NCBI GenBank assembly: GCA_021300015.1
Contig: JAJTFB010000032.1
Location: forward strand, 21,932-63,849
Reading direction: 5' to 3'
DNA length: 41,918 bases
From: Pirellula sp.
GTDB lineage: Bacteria; Planctomycetota; Planctomycetia; Pirellulales; Pirellulaceae
Of the stretch, positions 13,760 to 21,857 are shown in pieces. Each line of letters begins with the position of its first letter. Position 1 is the stretch's first letter. The notes below the pieces were generated by a model. The model saw only the letters and a list, made by a program, of their open reading frames with translations. It was not told the DNA's origin and ran no database searches. The translations under genes and the position numbers were made by a program.

Positions 13760-14890
13760 TTACTCGAAGTTGACGAAGGTCTCACCACCGTTGCGGGAGC
13801 CGAATCCCCACCAGACGCGATCTTCGATCGAACCGCTGACATAACGGATGTGCCCATCGGCGACCGCCACATGCACGCCACTGCCGTGCTGGCTGCTGGC
13901 CGTGACCATGTTGTTGCCACTGGCTTCCCCACCGGTGATATGGCAGTTTCGTTGATTCGGCAGCATCACATGCATGTAGGTATTGCCTGCGAGGGTTAAG
14001 CCTGAAATCCAAGCTTTGCCGTGAGGTGCCGAGTAAAGCGGATCGGGCGACGAGACGCCTTGGCAATAGCTGACCCACTGAGGAAGAGTACGGGTCGTAC
14101 CTCCACCGCCGCAAAAGGACATGACCTTTGGCGGGCCAGGTGGCATCGATGCGCCGAAGAGTCCTTGGACGGGCACCAAGCTGTTGATCACACGTTCGGC
14201 CAAGAGTGCGGTGTTCGAAGATCCATCGACGAGATCGCGGAACCTCATTTTGGGTTGGTACCAGAAGCGATTCGTATCGGCTGGATTGTCGATCGGCATG
14301 GCTCCGTTGGTCTGTCCGAGTGGACCGCTCTGACCGGTGATCCCGGTAGTCTGTCGAACCCATCCGATGTTGGCTGCATAGCTTCCCGGTGCTGGCGAGG
14401 CGGTCCCGGCGACTTGAGTCGGGACCCAAGCATCCGAGGGGCAAATGAAGGTGGGGATGACTTGCGCGGCGGCTTGCGCATTGCGATGGTTGGCTTGGAT
14501 ATTGAGGCTCAAATAATTCGGAGCGGTGGTCCCTACCGTGCTGGTCATCGGCACGGCGAAATCGATCGATTGGTAGAGTGGAAGTTGCTCGACCTGGGGT
14601 AGGATCATCGCAAGCCAACTGTAAAGACCGCTGCCTCGCGGGTTGCCCGGAACTCCGCTGCCGGTGATTGTGACCGGAAAGGTTTTGAAGGCCGATTCGT
14701 AGCTGTGTATCGCAAGCGAAAGCTGTTTGAGGTTGTTGCGAGCGGCTTGGACGGCCGGGAGCAAAAGTCCCACCAGGACACCGATAATGGCGATGACGAC
14801 CAGAAGTTCGACCAAGGTAAAACCAAGCCTTGTTCGGCATGGTGAAACTCGGGGGATCCCGTGGAAAACCGGGGTAAAGGGCTTTGGCAT
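13760..14890 (-). CDS. DUF1559 protein with pseudopilin-type N-terminus (first of three)
   Basis: 376 residues from the ATG at 14890 (GGAGAG about 8 bases upstream). After a basic leader comes the type IV pilin-like cleavage/methylation motif [26 protein letters not shown], then the DUF1559 domain ([53 protein letters not shown]). DUF1559 proteins are greatly expanded in planctomycetes, are presumed to be surface pseudopilins, and have no proven function. The usual EAARRMxCS segment between AVQAAR and NNLKQ is missing (9 residues), unlike the other two copies in this window. The upstream region carries two copies of the inverted repeat shared with the CobW/PEP-CTERM and DUF1559/AztD-like promoters. 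Confidence 0.9.
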
Positions 14891-14966
14891 GAAGTTTCTC
14901 TCCGGGCGAATCACAAATCCGTAACCAGTCTCGATCGACGCACAAGCCTAGTATTTACAAAAGAGG

Positions 14967-15010
14967 TTTGTAATCAATTGCAAAAAATAAGATTTGCAAT
15001 ATTTTTGCAT
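14967..15010 (-). promoter_or_regulatory. Candidate Fur/Zur-type operators upstream of DUF1559 gene 13760-14890
   Basis: Two inverted repeats lie 77-120 bases before the start codon. Bases 14995-15009 read TGCAATATTTTTGCA, fitting TRCAA-N5-TTGCA. Bases 14967-14984 read TTTGTAATCAATTGCAAA, a near-perfect 8-2-8 palindrome containing TGTAA-N4-TTGCA, a spacing variant. The region is AT-rich, as expected for a promoter, but I cannot single out -35 and -10 boxes. Confidence 0.5.
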
Positions 15011-15076
15011 AAGCGAAACCCTGAAAACCCTAACGATCGCCCCATGGGCCGCGGATCAACCGAATGTTGTTCCAAT

Positions 15077-15119
15077 AAAAGCAGCAGGCCAGCGGATTGT
15101 CCGCTGGCCTGCTGCTTTT
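15077..15119 (-). terminator. Strong terminator after the PEP-CTERM gene
   Basis: A perfect 15-bp stem, GCAGCAGGCCAGCGG at 15081-15095 and its complement at 15101-15115, with a 5-base loop. It is flanked by A4 on the left and T5 on the right, so it can act in both directions. It lies 26 bases after the stop of the gene 15145-15894 and shields the DUF1559 promoter from read-through. Confidence 0.92.
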
Positions 15120-15144
15120 TATATCGACCGATGCTCAGGGCCAA

Positions 15145-15894
15145 TCAACTCATCTTGCGACGTCGAAGCCTGCGATAGCCCGAACCGATGGCCAAGACCG
15201 AGAAGATCGCCATCGAACCCGGTTCAGGAACCTCACCCCCATTAGGTACCGAATCGACGTAGAACGTGAAGGTACCATCGCCTGAAAAAGTTTGACTATC
15301 CGAGATTCTCGTCGCAGAGACTCGAAGGCTCACATCAAACGTTCCTGCTCGGTTGAACCCCACGTTGAAGTGATCGTGCGATCCTCCAGGAAGCGAGAAT
15401 GATTTCGCAAAACCATCGACCGAGGATAGCTTGACGTTCGTTACACCAAACGATTCGGCGAAGACCGAAAAGACCCCGCCTGCAGGCCCATTGACCGAGA
15501 GCAACGAGAAGGTGACGTTGGACCAAAGACCAGGGGCCAATTCCTCGGCGCCCCATCCCAAATAGGGCTTGTTTGGGTCGTTGTTCAGCGGAAGAAACCA
15601 TACCGAATCGCCGGGGGTTCCTGCAAAATCCCAGCCTGTTCCGGGTAGAGTGATCGGCGCTCCAGGGACGAAAATCTGATGCTCGTCGGCCTCATGATGG
15701 CCCTCGGGGAGCGTCCCGCCCCCGAAGGCTCCGACACCACCGCTATGGAAGTGCAGACCTATCTCCAATGCCCCGTCGTGGAAATGGGCATCGATATCAC
15801 CGTGCCCATTTGCCCAAATTCCAGCCTCAAGACTCGAAACCATCCCTAAACCAAAAACGATAGCCGCCATCCATGCGGCAAGATGCATTCTCAT
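15145..15894 (-). CDS. His-rich choice-of-anchor M domain protein with PEP-CTERM signal
   Basis: 249 residues from the ATG at 15894, with a strong AGGAG. A signal peptide (residues 1-24) is followed by a histidine-rich stretch: GHGD (31), HFH (37-39), HFH (48-50), GHH (65-67), EHQ (71-73). Residues 88-180 match the choice-of-anchor M/surface-anchored domain: GDSVWFLPLNNDPNKPYLGWGAEEL, then GSHDHFNVGFNRAGTFDVS. The end is a PEP-CTERM sorting signal: VPEP at 222-225, a hydrophobic helix, and RRLRRRK. The protein should be exported and then processed by an exosortase. In actinobacteria this domain is linked to zinc/manganese-type ABC transporters. The histidines and the divergent CobW gene fit metal binding at the surface, which is inference. 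Confidence 0.85.
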   Translation of the reverse strand: MRMHLAAWMAAIVFGLGMVSSLEAGIWANGHGDIDAHFHDGALEIGLHFHSGGVGAFGGGTLPEGHHEADEHQIFVPGAPITLPGTGWDFAGTPGDSVWFLPLNNDPNKPYLGWGAEELAPGLWSNVTFSLLSVNGPAGGVFSVFAESFGVTNVKLSSVDGFAKSFSLPGGSHDHFNVGFNRAGTFDVSLRVSATRISDSQTFSGDGTFTFYVDSVPNGGEVPEPGSMAIFSVLAIGSGYRRLRRRKMS

Positions 15895-15934
15895 TGCAAA
15901 CTCCTTTTTGTAGAATGAGTAAATTCATCATTTA

Positions 15935-15977
15935 TACAATCGTATTGCATATAAGGATTCGATGCAATAAGATTGCG
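15935..15977. promoter_or_regulatory. Divergent promoter with two candidate Fur/Zur-type operators
   Basis: Two inverted repeats lie 28 bases apart between the PEP-CTERM gene (minus) and the CobW gene (plus). 15935-15949 is TACAATCGTATTGCA and 15963-15977 is TGCAATAAGATTGCG, both fitting TRCAA-N5-TTGCR. A plus-strand promoter can be drawn as TTGCAT (15945-15950), a 17-base spacer, and TAAGAT (15968-15973), so one box covers the -35 and the other the -10. A minus-strand promoter TTGCAT-N17-TACGAT also overlaps both. Bound repressor would shut both genes. Metal dependence is inferred from the genes. Confidence 0.6.
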
Positions 15978-16066
15978 GCATCGGAAGAGGGGAATTTCGC
16001 GGGAATTTCCCTTTTTTCAGAAAAGACCTGTTTTTCTTGCAGTTTCCAACAAAAAAAGGGACGCGA

Positions 16067-17287
16067 ATGCCTCGCAACAAACTTCCAACGACCGTGCTCT
16101 CGGGATTTCTCGGCGCTGGAAAAACCACCGTTCTGAACCACGTACTGGCCAATCGAGAAGGTCTCAAAGTCGCTGTCATCGTCAACGACATGAGCCATAT
16201 CAACATCGATGCGGCGATCGTCCAAGGCCAAGGCACACTCAGCCGAACCGAAGAGCAACTCGTCGAGTTCTCCAACGGTTGCATCTGCTGTACCCTTCGC
16301 GAAGATCTCTTGATCGAAGTCCGCCGCCTGGCCGAAGAAAACCGCTTCGATTATCTGTTGATCGAATCGACAGGTATCTCCGAACCTTTACCCGTGGCCG
16401 AAACATTCACCTTCGCCGACGAACAAGGAAGCTCACTCTCGGAGGTAGCGACCATCGACACGATGGTCACCGTCGTCGATGCCTTAAACTTTTGGAAGGA
16501 TTACCAGTCGTTCGACGACCTGAAAGAAAGAAACATCGGGATCAATGACCAAGACCAACGCAATATTGTCGATCTGCTGATCGATCAAATCGAATTCGCC
16601 ACCGTGATCCTCCTGAACAAATGCGACCTGGTCGAACCCTCCGAACTCGACGCAATCGAAGCCTTCATCAAAGAACTCAATCCCTTCGCCAAAGTCCTTC
16701 GGACACAACAGGGACGCGTCGCGATCGAGGAGATCGTCGGCTCGAAATCCTACGACGAACAATGGGCAGCAGGGCACCCCGATTGGCTTGCCGTCGCACG
16801 CGGAGAAGAAGTCTCCGAAACGGATGAATATGGAATCACTTCGTTTGCCTTCGAAGAACGCCGTCCGTTTCACCCCGATCGCTTGATGAAGGCCCTGAAT
16901 TTTCAAGACGGAATCCTCCAAGGTGTCCTGCGATCCAAAGGCTACTGCTGGATCGCCTCGCGAAACGATCAAGCCTTCCGTTGGTCCCAAGCCGGCGTGT
17001 CGGTCCAAATCGAACACGATGGAGACTGGTTTGCATCGGTCGACCAAGACCAATGGCCTGAAGACCCAGACGATATCGCTTCGATCCGTGAAAGCATGGA
17101 GGAACCCTGGGGCGATCGCCGGCAAGAACTCGTCTTTATCGGCACCGATATGGATCAGGTCGTGCTGCTCTCACGCCTCGAGGAATGCCTGCTGAGCGAC
17201 CAGGAAATGGAACTCGGACCGGCCGTCTGGGAAACTTGGGAGTCCAACCTCCCGATCGATCCTCCCTCGGACCCCAATGCCGATTAG
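16067..17287 (+). CDS. CobW/COG0523 family GTPase, probable zinc metallochaperone
   Basis: 406 residues from the ATG at 16067 (AAAAGGG 6 bases upstream). COG0523 proteins are GTPases that hand metal ions, most often zinc, to target proteins, and are frequently induced under zinc limitation (YciC, ZigA, ZNG1). Walker A is GFLGAGKTT (13-21), the metal-binding CxCC motif is CICC (72-75), the switch segment is ESTGISEP (100-107), and the guanine-specificity motif is NKCD (184-187). The C-terminal CobW domain follows (HPDRLMKAL..., GYCWIASR near 295). No long His-rich loop is present. The divergent, co-regulated-looking His-rich surface protein favours zinc over cobalt; no cobalamin genes are nearby. 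The C-terminus is acidic. Confidence 0.9.
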
Positions 17288-17343
17288 CTCCCGCTTGATT
17301 CCTGATGGATCCAAAAAACCCGGCCGCAAAAATCTTTCGAGGC

Positions 17344-17367
17344 CATCGATTTGATCGCAAATCGATG
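17344..17367. other. Inverted repeat after the CobW-type gene
   Basis: CATCGATTTG, 4 bases, CAAATCGATG: a perfect 10-bp stem starting 57 bases after the stop of the CobW-type gene. No T-run follows, so it is not a standard terminator. It may end or stabilise the transcript, or bind a protein. It shares GCAAATCG with the operator at 17406-17422. Confidence 0.5.
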
Positions 17368-17405
17368 ACAAATGAATCGCTAATGAAAAACGTCAGGTTT
17401 CTCAC

Positions 17406-17433
17406 TTGCAAATCGTTTGCATGTGGATATTAT
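17406..17433 (+). promoter_or_regulatory. Promoter with candidate Fur/Zur-type operator for DUF1559/AztD-like operon
   Basis: Bases 17407-17421 read TGCAAATCGTTTGCA, the most symmetric copy of the shared inverted repeat, in the 7-1-7 layout TGCAAAT-C-GTTTGCA. A promoter can be drawn as TTGCAA (17406-17411), a 16-base spacer, TATTAT (17428-17433), so the operator covers the -35. The start codon follows at 17507. Confidence 0.6.
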
Positions 17434-17506
17434 TTGCTCGTGCGTTCTAGCACAGTTTTGAGTTTCTTTCTCTGGTTATTCCTCATTCAGGATTCAGGAG
17501 TCGCAA

Positions 17507-18544
17507 ATGTCTCGCAACCATCGCGCCCGTCGCGGATTTACCCTCGTGGAACTGCTCGTCGTGATCGCCATCATCGGTATCCTTGTCGGATTGCTCTTGC
17601 CGGCTGTGCAAGCCGCCCGAGAAGCCGCTCGAAGAATGTCCTGCTCGAACAACGTCAAGCAAATCAGCCTCGCAATCCAAAACTACGAATCGGCCTTCAA
17701 ACGCTACCCAGGCCTGCTCGGTAGCAGCACCTATTCGGCCCAAGCTCGAATCCTCCCCCATATCGAACAAGCCAACCTCTCTCAGAGGATCGACTTCGCA
17801 CGACCGCTGCTGCTTGGACCCGCGTTTGCCGCCCGGTTCGATGCCGCAATGGCACCCTTGGTATCGCAACCTATCCCAACCTTCTTATGTCCAAGCGATG
17901 GCGAGTCGCCCCTGTTTCCCACAACCCTCTCGGACAACACCGCTAGCTTCTCCGCCGGCTTGAACTACATGGTCAGCATCGGTAGCGGTCGCAATCTGTC
18001 CTACGATGATCGATTCGAAACCGACGGAATGTTCTGGACGGGGGCGTTCGCTAAACTCGCCAAATGCGTCGATGGAACAAGCAATACCGTCATCTTGGCC
18101 GAAACCATCCTCGGGGATAAACAATTCAGCAACACCATGCCCGTGCAACAACCCGTACGACGCATCGGCAATTGGGCCGGAACGACCCTAAATAACGCCG
18201 GCCAAGGCTTCCTCTTTAACGGCAGCCTGATCTCCAACCCGAACCTCACGGCATTGTTCCCAGGCATCGTTAACTCGTACCGAGGGAATCGTGGCGAAAG
18301 CTGGATCCGAGGGGTCCCCCATGCGACGACCATCAACGGATACCTTACCCCCAACAATCCTATCCCCGATATCGGATTCCATGGACGGGGCTTCTATTCG
18401 GCTCGCTCCATGCACGGCAGCGGGGTGCAACTCGGGTACGCCGATGGTTCGGTCCGCTTTATCTCGAACAACGTTCAAGAACTCGCCTACCGAAATGCCT
18501 TCTCGGCCAACGGGGGCGAAATCAGCGTTTCCCTCGACGATTAA
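17507..18544 (+). CDS. DUF1559 protein with pseudopilin-type N-terminus (second of three)
   Basis: 345 residues; the ATG at 17507 follows AGGAG. The leader RNHRARRG precedes [25 protein letters not shown] and the intact [12 protein letters not shown] segment. The DUF1559 body has [42 protein letters not shown] and the C-terminal NGGE. It is expected to be a prepilin-peptidase substrate exposed outside the inner membrane. The AztD-like gene starts 31 bases after its stop, so the two are almost certainly co-transcribed from the promoter at 17406-17433. The pairing suggests that this DUF1559 protein serves metal handling at the envelope, which is inference. Confidence 0.92.
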
Positions 18545-18575
18545 TCCCTGCTTGAACCCACTCGGAGAATCTGCA

Positions 18576-19976
18576 ATGAACCTCAAAAAAATTCGCCAAG
18601 CTGCCTTCCACTCGCTTCTAGCCGGTATCCTGTCGGCCAATTCAATCGAAGTTTGCCTCGGTCAATCGGCCAGCAAAGAAACACCGCCGCGCAAGATCGC
18701 AAGGGTGCTCTGGCAGGACAATGAAACCCAATCGATGCGTTGGGGGGATCTGGAGCGGACTGATTCGAACTGGTCCCTCAAACCCCAGGGGATCGCCAAT
18801 GCACCTAGCCTCGACCCAGAGCACCAGCAGTTCTCTCAAATGCAACGACTCGGGCAGTCTCTGATCGTCGGAGTCCGTGACGATGAAGATGGAACTCTCG
18901 GAAGTGGGTGGATCGCGGTCGATTCAGGGGTGAGTCTTGAGGAACACGGCGACCATTTCCATGCCCACTACGGCGCTGCTCCGAGCATCGCCGGTGTGCA
19001 GCTCGATGCCGACCAGGGCAACCCAGCCCACGTCTATCGAATCGGGAACCAAGTCTTTCTGGCCAATGATGCCAAACAAGGCTTTACCATCCTGGGAGCT
19101 TGCTCGGCCGATGCTCCTAAGACCAACCCGCCGAGCTCTTACACCGCGAAATTCCATCCCGGTGGAGGCTCACATATCACTTTGGCGGCCTTCGAAGACC
19201 GCTATTGCTTTGCCACCTGGCCGGACCGCGAAGGCGAAAATGTAGGCCGTGTCGATATCGTCTCGATCGCTGCAAAAAATGCGGAGTCTCTAGCGTCTTT
19301 CAAAGTCAGAAGCGGTGGACTTCATGGCGCGACGGCCAACACCAAACGCATCTTCTTTGCCCCAAGCGATGGCGTCGATTGGATCGATGCGGGCAACTGG
19401 AAGCCAGGTACTGTACCGACCGTTGAGCATATCGACCTGGGCAAGGATCCTGAATCCGGGAAGCCTTATCGAACCGGCGCGTTCGAAAACCATCTCCATT
19501 ATGTCCTATTCGCCTACGGCACTGGTGCAAACTCCAAAATCGGTATGCTCGATGCCCGCAGCAAGGACATGACGCTCGCATCGTTGGCTCTCGATGCGAC
19601 CGAAGGCCTTGCGCTGAGCACTCCCGTCGCTTTCGTCGCGGCCAACGATAAACACTATGCTTGGGTCGTCCACCATCGCCGTGGATCGAACAACGAAGAA
19701 AAGCTTACCTCGATCGATCTCGATCCCAACGGAGATGGTCGCTTCGATGACGCTCGAATTCACAAGCAGCTAGCGATCGGAGCCAGCAAGATCTCGAACC
19801 ACTCGGGAATGCACGATATCGCTCTGCTGGCGGACCGACGGACCGCTTGCATCTCGATGCCTGGAGACTCGGAGATCTGGATCGTCTCGATCTACGGGAT
19901 GGAGATCCTTGCCAAACTCAAAGTGGGTGGAACCCCGACCAAACTCGAGGCCTTCGGCGCTGCTCCCGATCGATAA
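18576..19976 (+). CDS. AztD-like beta-propeller, probable periplasmic zinc chaperone
   Basis: 466 residues from the ATG at 18576 (GGAGAA 8 bases upstream), with a signal peptide (HSLLAGILSANSIEVCLGQSA). I remember AztD, the periplasmic zinc chaperone of the aztABCD transporter, as a beta-propeller with an HGDH-type metal motif, a PAHV strand and a GLHG block. Here EEHGDHFHAHY puts His at 124, 127, 129 and 131, followed by NPAHVYRIGNQVFLAND, GGGSHITLAAF and SGGLHGATANTKRIF, in the same order. Further His occur in NHLHY, KHYAWVVHHRR and the NHSGMHD end. No azt ABC transporter genes are in the window. The assignment is from memory. A more distant YVTN/NHL-type propeller is the alternative. A decayed fragment of a related gene sits at 12608-12685. 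Confidence 0.65.
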   Translation: MNLKKIRQAAFHSLLAGILSANSIEVCLGQSASKETPPRKIARVLWQDNETQSMRWGDLERTDSNWSLKPQGIANAPSLDPEHQQFSQMQRLGQSLIVGVRDDEDGTLGSGWIAVDSGVSLEEHGDHFHAHYGAAPSIAGVQLDADQGNPAHVYRIGNQVFLANDAKQGFTILGACSADAPKTNPPSSYTAKFHPGGGSHITLAAFEDRYCFATWPDREGENVGRVDIVSIAAKNAESLASFKVRSGGLHGATANTKRIFFAPSDGVDWIDAGNWKPGTVPTVEHIDLGKDPESGKPYRTGAFENHLHYVLFAYGTGANSKIGMLDARSKDMTLASLALDATEGLALSTPVAFVAANDKHYAWVVHHRRGSNNEEKLTSIDLDPNGDGRFDDARIHKQLAIGASKISNHSGMHDIALLADRRTACISMPGDSEIWIVSIYGMEILAKLKVGGTPTKLEAFGAAPDR

Positions 19977-20112: not shown

Positions 20113-20592
20113 CTACTGAGGTTTGCGAGGTGGAGCGAATTTGATCCTTTCGACCAAACGCTTGATCTCATCACCCTGCCTTTGCCCTGTGATGGTCGAG
20201 ATCGCATTAATCACATGCGAATAACGCAGGTTGTAATCCAAATCGATCTCCACCTCCGGGCCCTCTTCTGGGCTTGGTGGAGCGTTGCCACCGGTCTGCT
20301 GAAGGATGAACGCTCGGAGCTTTCCAAAGTCGTTGCCAAACGATCGGGTGTCATCCACGACGATATCGACCAACTCCCCGTCGGTGTTCGATCGCAATCG
20401 AAGTTTGATCGGTAAGTTCGTCGTATCGGCGGCACCTGAACCACCTCCGATCGGCATGCGGATATTGAAGTCCCCTTCCTGGGCAGCGATCTTGAACGTC
20501 ATGACAAAGAAGATCAGCAACAAAAAGATGATGTCGATCATCGAGGTCAGTTGCATCTCGACCTTTTCGTCGCTTCGGGATTTGAATTTCAT
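20113..20592 (-). CDS. ExbD/TolR family biopolymer transport protein
   Basis: 159 residues from the ATG at 20592, 4 bases after the stop of the upstream exbD-like gene, so probably translationally coupled. One transmembrane helix, QLTSMIDIIFLLLIFFVMTFKI, contains the conserved Asp of the ExbD/TolR proton channel (SMIDIIF). The periplasmic part ends with a typical ExbD alpha/beta domain (LDYNLRYSHVINAISTITGQ). It differs from the neighbouring copy in its basic N-terminus and a Gly/Ser-rich insertion after the helix. The two ExbD proteins may form a heterodimer within the ExbB pentamer. Confidence 0.87.
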   Translation of the reverse strand: MKFKSRSDEKVEMQLTSMIDIIFLLLIFFVMTFKIAAQEGDFNIRMPIGGGSGAADTTNLPIKLRLRSNTDGELVDIVVDDTRSFGNDFGKLRAFILQQTGGNAPPSPEEGPEVEIDLDYNLRYSHVINAISTITGQRQGDEIKRLVERIKFAPPRKPQ

Positions 20593-20596
20593 GGTA

Positions 20597-21040
20597 CTAC
20601 TGACCGATCTCCTCTTTGGCACGCAAGGCAAACTTCTCGTAGCCAGATTCTTGACACTTCTTGATCAATTCCTGGACCAAACCGCCGGATGTATTGCCGT
20701 CGGCTCGGATGATCACGTTGGCGTCTTTGGCACTCTTACCGTTGGACTTCAGTACATTGGCTTCCAGCTCCAAAAGCGGACGTAGACCAGCGATCGTTGC
20801 GGTTTCGGCTCCCAAATAGATATTTCCGTTGAACGCCAAGTTCAAAACGAGTGGATTTTCCAACGGAGTCTCGGCTGGCTTGGCCAACTCGCTCGTCGGT
20901 AATTTGATCGCTTGATTCTGGTCATCTTGGGAAAAATTGATCAGCACCATGAAGAAGATGATCAACTGGAAAACCATGTCGATCATCGCCGTCATGTCCC
21001 CTTCGGCTGCCTTCGCACCGAACTTTGATTTGAGTGCCAT
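20597..21040 (-). CDS. ExbD/TolR family biopolymer transport protein (first copy in operon)
   Basis: 147 residues. The transmembrane helix with the channel Asp is MTAMIDMVFQLIIFFMVLINF, followed by a periplasmic domain with DANVIIRADGNTSGGLVQELIKKCQESGYEKFALRA, the usual ExbD fold. With ExbB it should form a motor that uses the proton gradient to move a partner across the periplasm. It starts 49 bases after the exbB-like stop. No TonB or TolA follows; a second ExbD does. The ribosome-binding site is weak. Confidence 0.9.
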   Translation of the reverse strand: MALKSKFGAKAAEGDMTAMIDMVFQLIIFFMVLINFSQDDQNQAIKLPTSELAKPAETPLENPLVLNLAFNGNIYLGAETATIAGLRPLLELEANVLKSNGKSAKDANVIIRADGNTSGGLVQELIKKCQESGYEKFALRAKEEIGQ

Positions 21041-21089
21041 AGCGTCGTTTTCTAAGGAAAGCTCTGTGACTTAGCGATTCGATCCGTAA

Positions 21090-21857
21090 CTACTTCGCCG
21101 CATCTTGGAATTTTTCAATCAGCTCTTCGCTCTTAGCCCCGGCATGCTGGATCTGCCGTTGGACTAGGTTCCGAAGAATGTTGTAGATGACGATTGCGGG
21201 GATTGCCAAATACAAGCCGACGAGTGTTGTGTAAAGGGCCTGCTCGATACCGACGGCCAACACGCTGGGCTTGGGCGTCTGGGGACTTGTCGCGATCGCG
21301 CCGAAGGAAGCGACCATCCCTTGGACCGTGCCTAGCAGACCAACCATCGGAGCGATGTTTCCAATCAAGGCGATGTAGCTGAGCATATGCTCGACTCGCA
21401 TCGTCTCGGCGTCTCCTGCGACCTGCATGGCTTCGAGAACGGCCTCTTTGCCCTTGGTCAATTGGCCAAGCCCAGCATTGAGCAGGTTCCCCAGGAAGCT
21501 TTCGTCGGCTTTGACCAACTCGGCAGCAGCTTGTGGATTGTTCTCTGCCAAACTCGCTTCGATGCCTTGGACCAAATCTTCAGGTACAAAATTCGCTTTC
21601 TGAACCGCCAAAATCGCTCGGACAACCAACGCCACCAAAATAATCGACATGAGTAAAAACACGATGGCGTACATCGTCCCCAAGGCATTCCACGTTTTGA
21701 CCAGCATGTTCTCGCCTGCTGCAGCCTGGGGCGCAGCGTCGGCTGCTTCTTGAGCCAACGAAACACCTGCCGTGTAGACGATCGCAAAGGCAACAGCGAG
21801 GATCCTAGAAAAGCGGATGAGCAGTTGGGCGGACCAAGTGCGGGAACAAGACGGCAT
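21090..21857 (-). CDS. ExbB/TolQ/MotA family proton channel protein
   Basis: 255 residues; the ATG at 21857 follows GGAG. An N-terminal signal-like helix and a short Ala-rich segment precede the three-helix ExbB core. Helix 1 is MYAIVFLLMSIILVALVVRAIL, a cytoplasmic domain follows (about residues 85-160), then the conserved pair IALIGNIAPMVGLLGTVQGMVASF and ALYTTLVGLYLAIPAIVIYNIL. An extra N-terminal signal sequence is common in planctomycete and related ExbB proteins. It is the stator of an energy-coupling complex with the two downstream ExbD proteins. The TPR genes upstream on the same strand suggest what the motor may act on. Confidence 0.92.
   Translation of the reverse strand: MPSCSRTWSAQLLIRFSRILAVAFAIVYTAGVSLAQEAADAAPQAAAGENMLVKTWNALGTMYAIVFLLMSIILVALVVRAILAVQKANFVPEDLVQGIEASLAENNPQAAAELVKADESFLGNLLNAGLGQLTKGKEAVLEAMQVAGDAETMRVEHMLSYIALIGNIAPMVGLLGTVQGMVASFGAIATSPQTPKPSVLAVGIEQALYTTLVGLYLAIPAIVIYNILRNLVQRQIQHAGAKSEELIEKFQDAAK

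Follow-up and report, generated by a model that had tools for sequence, protein, structure and literature searches.

A candidate Zur-type zinc regulon that includes two DUF1559 lineages in a Pirellula genome

The gene cluster and its operators

A 41,918-nucleotide stretch of DNA from Pirellula sp. (the window; contig JAJTFB010000032.1) contains a cluster of five genes whose three promoter regions share an inverted repeat, and which probably belong to one zinc-limitation regulon. An earlier note, made from the letters of this DNA, had assigned the five genes to named families, and profile scans bear this out. Two encode DUF1559 proteins, each with a PF07596 match and a prepilin-type N terminus: P0001 (13760..14914, minus strand; 144 bits; first ATG at 14890) and P0004 (17507..18544, plus strand; 195 bits). 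P0002 (15145..15894, minus strand) is a His-rich surface or secreted protein with a choice-of-anchor M domain (NF038134, 93.3 bits, cut-off 55) and a PEP-CTERM signal (TIGR02595, 17 bits, cut-off 16; the Pfam PEP-CTERM model gives 17.8, under its 20.7). P0003 (16067..17287, plus strand) is a COG0523/ZigA-like GTPase (PF02492/PF07683) with C-I-C-C as its CxCC motif. P0005 (18576..19976, plus strand), a putative zinc chaperone, resembles the AztD beta-propeller in predicted fold and ligands. P0001 and P0002 have separate upstream regions on the minus strand; P0003 and the P0004-P0005 pair lie on the plus strand.

The assembly comprises 4.26 Mb in 160 contigs and is 81% complete. Its closest named relatives over P0005, in a public scan, are metagenome-assembled genomes (MAGs) from Planctomycetota (L186, 94% identity) and from Pirellula (L187, 92%).

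The earlier note had also placed a Fur/Zur-format inverted repeat in all three promoter regions. It is indeed there, exact or with one mismatch, as a Zur regulon would require. The core TGCAA-N5-TTGCA is exact upstream of P0001 (14995-15009; 18.1 bits; unchanged in L187) and upstream of P0004-P0005 (17407-17421; 26.5 bits). Two copies with one mismatch, at 15935-15949 (16.7 bits) and 15963-15977 (under 12 bits), lie between the divergent genes P0002 and P0003, and may serve both. Scores are from a symmetrised weight matrix built on 15 sites in front of zur-type (8) and zigA-type (7) genes. The repeat is best written 7-3-7, as the 17-bp WTGCAAWnnnWTTGCAW. In the P0004 operator of two close relatives, paired substitutions keep the symmetry: the window has CTTGCAAATCGTTTGCATG and L187 has CTTGCAATTCGATTGCAAG.

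The motif is over-represented. With at most one mismatch there are 10 copies in the window (1.4 expected; none of 100 shuffles reach as many), the remaining six lying elsewhere in it, one across the start of the P0002 gene (15884-15898). The exact motif occurs at eight places in the genome, against one for the reversed control pattern; of the other six, five are within genes and one is intergenic. Scanned with the matrix from other genomes, the window has three sites of at least 16 bits, one per promoter region, against a mean of 0.075 and a maximum of 1 in 200 shuffles. Among the other 31 DUF1559 matches of this genome, 30 upstream stretches (up to 1 kb) lack a site of at least 14 bits. The only one there, C16:15037 (L303:338), lies on the window's contig, 7 kb left of the window start; it scores 17.9 bits and stands upstream of a third DUF1559 gene (C16:14102-14833, minus strand). 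A further candidate target, C75:15736, scores 12.2 bits.

The P0004 operator overlaps a promoter-like sequence on the plus strand (17406..17433): the left half-site at 17406 doubles as a −35-like hexamer, TTGCAA, and a −10-like hexamer, TATTAT, follows 16 bases on. The overlap is no more than suggestive: the region has two such promoter-like matches, and shuffles would lead one to expect 2.2.

The operator across the family and the phylum

The search pattern MTTGCAANNNNNTTGCAW, chosen after inspection of the window and of promoters in AztD-like loci, is present in 42 of 60 genomes of the family and gives 120 strand matches, where the reversed control gives 31. All listed sites but five were fetched, giving 98 loci; four of the unfetched sites are in AztD-like loci (L048, L053, L054) and one is coding (L007). 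Of the 105 sites scored, 41 are coding and 64 intergenic, or 62 once two doubled sites (L074 = L114) are removed. Intergenic sites are followed by genes for 95 proteins, 68 of them first genes and 27 second genes; here the commonest Pfam families are CobW (9) and FUR (8), and the commonest NCBIfam model is ZigA (10). A BLAST check of the 62 sites found 8 Fur-family and 7 zigA-type genes among the 68 first genes. For the 41 coding hosts, neither FUR nor CobW/ZigA is among the 25 listed of 103 families, and the BLAST check likewise found none. The choice of pattern preceded any knowledge of these zur- and zigA-type genes, and their presence downstream is independent support. The earlier note would have given up its proposal had the motif been no commoner before metal genes than elsewhere; across the family the proposal withstood this check, with copies preceding Fur-family and ZigA-type genes.

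In one case the site separates a zur-type gene from a divergent ZIP zinc transporter gene. In relatives, then, the operator stands before the regulator's own gene and before known zinc genes, which suggests an autoregulated Zur, although the metal of a Fur-family sensor is not readable from sequence. All eight Fur proteins match a single type best (FUR_L002), which has HPHFxCxxCG and a C-terminal CxxC; the copy in this genome lies outside the window, at G000:C81:153744-154034. (The Fur gene on C99 (L001), which neighbors a DUF1559 gene, was rejected as the regulator: it is not of the motif-associated type, and its region, L034, has no 12-bit site.) At L298 a zur-type gene has a ZIP gene and an AztD-like fragment only a few kb away; at L301 its neighbors at such a distance are a ZIP-like gene, recognised by eye, and a choice-of-anchor M gene. 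A motif stands upstream of the ZIP or the choice-of-anchor M gene. At L097, L120, L148, and L151 the gene after zigA, close to the motif, encodes a Pyr_redox_3 oxidoreductase that NCBIfam models class as YpdA/bacillithiol-reductase-like, and L117 has one as well; possibly the enzyme links zinc control to low-molecular thiols.

The matrix was then run over 276 upstream regions from the window and 20 AztD-like loci. (Gene calls in loci outside the window are from a custom open-reading-frame scorer, and their start positions are approximate.) Of the 22 regions that reach 14 bits, 14 belong to AztD-linked DUF1559 genes (window included), three to P0001, P0002, and P0003, one to a ZIP gene, and four to genes that diverge from one of these sites. 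No unrelated gene among the 276 reached that score. The result is in part circular, since the window and the promoters of these very loci had served to shape the search pattern. Five of the 18 P0004-type genes in the other loci stay under 14 bits (L040, L044, L045, L046, and L049).

Of 80 AztD-like loci taken from public planctomycete contigs, 63 have a same-strand DUF1559 gene within three genes and 17 do not, some of the latter being cut by a contig end. A site of at least 14 bits lies in the 300 bp upstream of 11 of the 63 AztD-linked DUF1559 genes; for all other genes the count is 20 of 683, and Fisher's test of the difference gives p 1.5e-5. Once the seven loci that overlap with close relatives of the window or with loci used earlier are set aside, 57 of the remaining 73 have the DUF1559 neighbor. 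These 73 hold 24 sites of at least 16 bits, and 14 of them lie upstream of cluster genes, in a portion that makes up 5.4% of the sequence (p 2e-12). With 100 column-permuted matrices, the number of sites in that portion never exceeds one. The counts reject the notion that the motif stands directly upstream of every AztD-linked DUF1559 gene. Part of the shortfall is explained by sites before aztD itself, before zigA, or 700-1200 bp upstream, the last for at least three further AztD-linked DUF1559 genes. At L194, L213, and L218 the motif lies at that distance from the DUF1559 start with no same-strand gene called between; such gaps would be long leaders or missed small genes. The operon and its site also occur in Blastopirellula marina DSM 3645 (L207) and in Gimesia (L253, a MAG). 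To judge from these sequences, the operator appears to be in use across much, not all, of the phylum.

Relatives with known zinc roles

AztD is the zinc chaperone of the AztABCD system; its ligands are H99, H102, and D104 at site 2 and H124, H167, and H218 at site 1 (PMC6689063). P0005 scores 26 bits against the AztD model NF038015 (cut-off 400), is 15-16% identical to AztD structures, and on its own retrieves nothing from the PDB at 0.001 with phmmer. A profile of 18 P0005 relatives, however, does find AztD there, and AztD structures rank 1-3 for the predicted P0005 model, a beta-propeller of the AztD fold. Residues H124, H127, H152, H200, and H250 are invariant in 18 of 18 sequences and align with H99, H102, H124, H167, and H218 of 6ck1; at the position of D104 the residue is H or D. 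The ligands of both zinc sites are thereby kept, except the C-terminal His408 (present in 68% of AztD). No cysteine is invariant in the alignment, and the Cys214-Cys231 disulphide thus has no counterpart. The AztD-like propeller of the earlier note is accordingly weak by profile score and firm by modeled fold and ligands: P0005 is best described as a distant AztD-type protein outside NF038015. It differs from AztD also in setting, since no ABC transporter is among the five genes, and its partner is a DUF1559 protein. AztD-type chaperones would thus extend well beyond AztABCD.

P0003 matches the ZigA model NF038288 at 574 bits (E 1.3e-172), under the curated cut-off of 600; the next model reaches 182 bits. 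With its CxCC motif, it shares the hallmarks of ZigA/COG0523 zinc chaperones and probably works like ZigA, without being filed as ZigA.

P0002 recalls ZepA, a PEP-CTERM zinc exoprotein of Anabaena that is controlled by Zur and carries the zinc motif H-X2-9-H-F/Y-H; its homologs in the PVC superphylum and in other phyla are described as lying close to genes for COG0523, ZnuA, ZupT, and Fur-family proteins (PMC10957091). The zinc link of P0002-type proteins is therefore not new. P0002 has the PEP-CTERM signal, the motif H39-X8-H48-F-H50, an adjoining COG0523 gene, and Zur-like control, and is likened to ZepA by description, not by sequence alignment. In contrast to ZepA, most of its choice-of-anchor M relatives lack the first His of the motif; across 12 of them, H31, D33, H173, and H175 are invariant and H48 is nearly so. 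P0002 also matches TIGR03773 at 65 bits (cut-off 190) through its choice-of-anchor M domain. The proteins of TIGR03772/TIGR03773, which we take to be actinobacterial, are anchored-repeat proteins associated with transporters, in contrast to P0002, with its PEP-CTERM anchor and no ABC transporter gene in its cluster. Choice-of-anchor M genes occur in 17 of 119 genomes. Six of 15 stand-alone examples have a site of at least 15 bits within about 250 bp, and a seventh has one behind a preceding gene.

Two DUF1559 lineages

The earlier note described the regulon as built around DUF1559 proteins. What stands is narrower: two specific lineages, each with its own zinc-type partner, belong to it, and DUF1559 in general does not, as the siteless upstream stretches of this genome indicate. 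Of 20 fetched family loci, 18 encode a P0004-type protein (217-484 bits to P0004) only a few genes away from the AztD-like gene; L039 and L057 are the exceptions. In the order, 22 of 246 genomes have AztD-like genes, and the 22 belong to a single family. Proteins of the P0001 type score 227-380 bits to P0001, against at most 157 for other DUF1559 proteins; 12 of 15 stand-alone choice-of-anchor M loci, window included, encode one next to the choice-of-anchor M gene. The exceptions, L169, L172, and L180, have none within their 1.5 kb flanks. P0001 is 40-57% identical to its counterparts in the 11 other loci. In a tree, the P0004-type and P0001-type groups are clades (support 99/94 and 100/99), which is not a wholly independent test because the labels derive partly from bit scores to P0001 and P0004; gene neighborhood is independent of them. 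Conserved pairing and shared control argue for a functional link, not for a mechanism. The tie of DUF1559 to the cluster is thus conserved in two lineages; a role for these proteins and a response to zinc are proposed.

The family is large. This genome has 33 matches, Planctopirus has 68 paralogs (PMC10632474), and another model planctomycete has 74, some of which are responsive to cold shock and salt shock (PMC2754498). No tested DUF1559 function was reported in the parts of the literature consulted, and in the open-access library searched four papers mention DUF1559, none of them in connection with zinc; the main text of the ZepA paper contains neither DUF1559, AztD, nor the TTGCAA half-site (PMC10957091).

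In P0001, nine residues present in the aligned relatives are missing right after the prepilin helix. Other features recur around these genes. A PQQ-type propeller that carries EF-hands is encoded next to DUF1559/AztD operons and is also seen in divergent orientation to a zur-type gene, the motif lying in the interval (L048:8598-10139, L041:8969-10498, and L137:576-2237). A protein of about 400 residues that starts with FCPxxNxYVYWLKxPVGWF is encoded beside choice-of-anchor M or AztD/DUF1559 genes (L302:3521-4831, L168:3-1172, and L213:798-2075).

A model for zinc limitation and its alternatives

The gene families, the motif and its place before zur- and zigA-type genes, the conserved pairings, and the AztD fold and ligands, as read from sequence and structural model, point to a single regulon for zinc limitation under a Zur-type repressor of the Fur family. 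This reading, which in outline was that of the earlier note, is well supported and probably correct; its zinc-specific Zur, the repression, the zinc response, and the part played by DUF1559 are deductions from that evidence. With zinc plentiful, the repressor, most likely the product of C81:153744-154034, would bind WTGCAAWnnnWTTGCAW in the three promoter regions. As zinc falls, it would be released, allowing production of the periplasmic AztD-type chaperone P0005; the ZepA-like His-rich PEP-CTERM exoprotein P0002; the cytoplasmic ZigA-type GTPase P0003; and the two prepilin-type DUF1559 proteins, the P0004 type partnered with the AztD-like protein and the P0001 type with the choice-of-anchor M protein. 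Presumably, the DUF1559 proteins are pseudopilin-like, membrane-rooted parts of the envelope that hold or pass zinc-loaded partners between surface and periplasm.

The motif itself has a precedent. A 2004 comparative study predicts ZUR sites before the Desulfovibrio znuABC-zur genes, 17-bp palindromes of the form ATGCAACNNNGTTGCAT (PMC545781). The 17-bp palindrome here, ATGCAACnnnGTTGCAT, has identical half-sites and spacing. It differs in its targets: DUF1559, choice-of-anchor M, and ZigA-like genes and the DUF1559-AztD operon, the ZnuA gene of this genome having no site. A Zur-type motif is thereby offered for Planctomycetota, none earlier having been found in the part of the literature consulted.

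Several observations weigh against such a regulon. The operator is often missing across the phylum: only 11 of 63 AztD-linked DUF1559 genes reach 14 bits (7 of 57 without the overlapping loci), and a rank test over all scores does not separate these genes from others (p 0.18). Eight of the 15 stand-alone choice-of-anchor M genes have no upstream site of at least 15 bits, and 46 of the 62 family sites lead into no gene recognized as zur, zigA, or P0004-type. In this genome the zur-type gene has no site, and neither has the ZnuA gene, which was rejected as a target; no ZIP gene was found in the 81%-complete assembly. ZIP transporters were likewise rejected as general members, with a site upstream in only 2 of 30 fetched loci. 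Lastly, the case is built from sequence and model.

The repeats might be chance AT-rich palindromes, or the sites of an unrelated factor. Promoter regions are AT-rich and the copy at 15963-15977 scores low; yet none of 2000 composition-preserving shuffles of the joined promoter regions contains three 16-bit sites, by which chance palindromes are rejected, and the enrichment before Fur-family genes across genomes and the symmetric substitutions in relatives make either version highly improbable. Fur control might also be real with manganese, nickel, or iron as the metal, or several metals. The 25 commonest NCBIfam models beside the motif include Fur and PerR and no Zur, and some 30% of the analyzed COG0523 members are linked to zinc (PMC2770081). 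Against this stand three independent pointers to zinc downstream (the AztD fold and ligands, ZigA as by far the best match of P0003, and the ZIP gene divergent from a zur-type gene), together with the identity to the predicted Desulfovibrio site, and a metal other than zinc seems unlikely.

A closer contest concerns DUF1559 within a zinc regulon. These proteins could be generic envelope or secretion parts, merely co-expressed and with no zinc role of their own. Their sheer number, the response of some to cold and salt, and the P0004 type itself, with H292 and H303 as its only invariant His and no obvious zinc motif, fit this. Two distinct lineages nevertheless keep one partner each across genera, many with the operator, while nearly all other DUF1559 genes here are siteless; generic parts are a possibility to be taken seriously, if not the expected one. 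The bolder proposal is that the two lineages are dedicated zinc-scavenging pseudopilins under Zur, forming envelope structures that carry zinc from the ZepA-like surface protein (P0001) and to the AztD-type propeller (P0004). It is offered tentatively, and may well prove wrong. If correct, it would be the first assigned role within one of the largest uncharacterized planctomycete families, and other DUF1559 paralogs might be cargo-specific versions for other solutes. The operator, the candidate Zur, and the two fixed partner pairs make the function of both lineages directly testable.

Neighboring features

In one genus an alkaline phosphatase gene adjoins the DUF1559/AztD operon (L047:4864-6492, PF00245 for this copy; same place in L050-L053 and L055); we take PF00245 to be a family of zinc enzymes. 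Between the P0001 promoter region and the end of P0002, at about 15078-15123, lies a long, near-perfect hairpin with A-rich and T-rich flanks, read by eye and perhaps a bidirectional terminator. Adjoining the cluster, at 20113-21857, are open reading frames recognized by eye as resembling two ExbD/TolR proteins and one ExbB/TolQ protein, a possible energizer for outer-membrane uptake.

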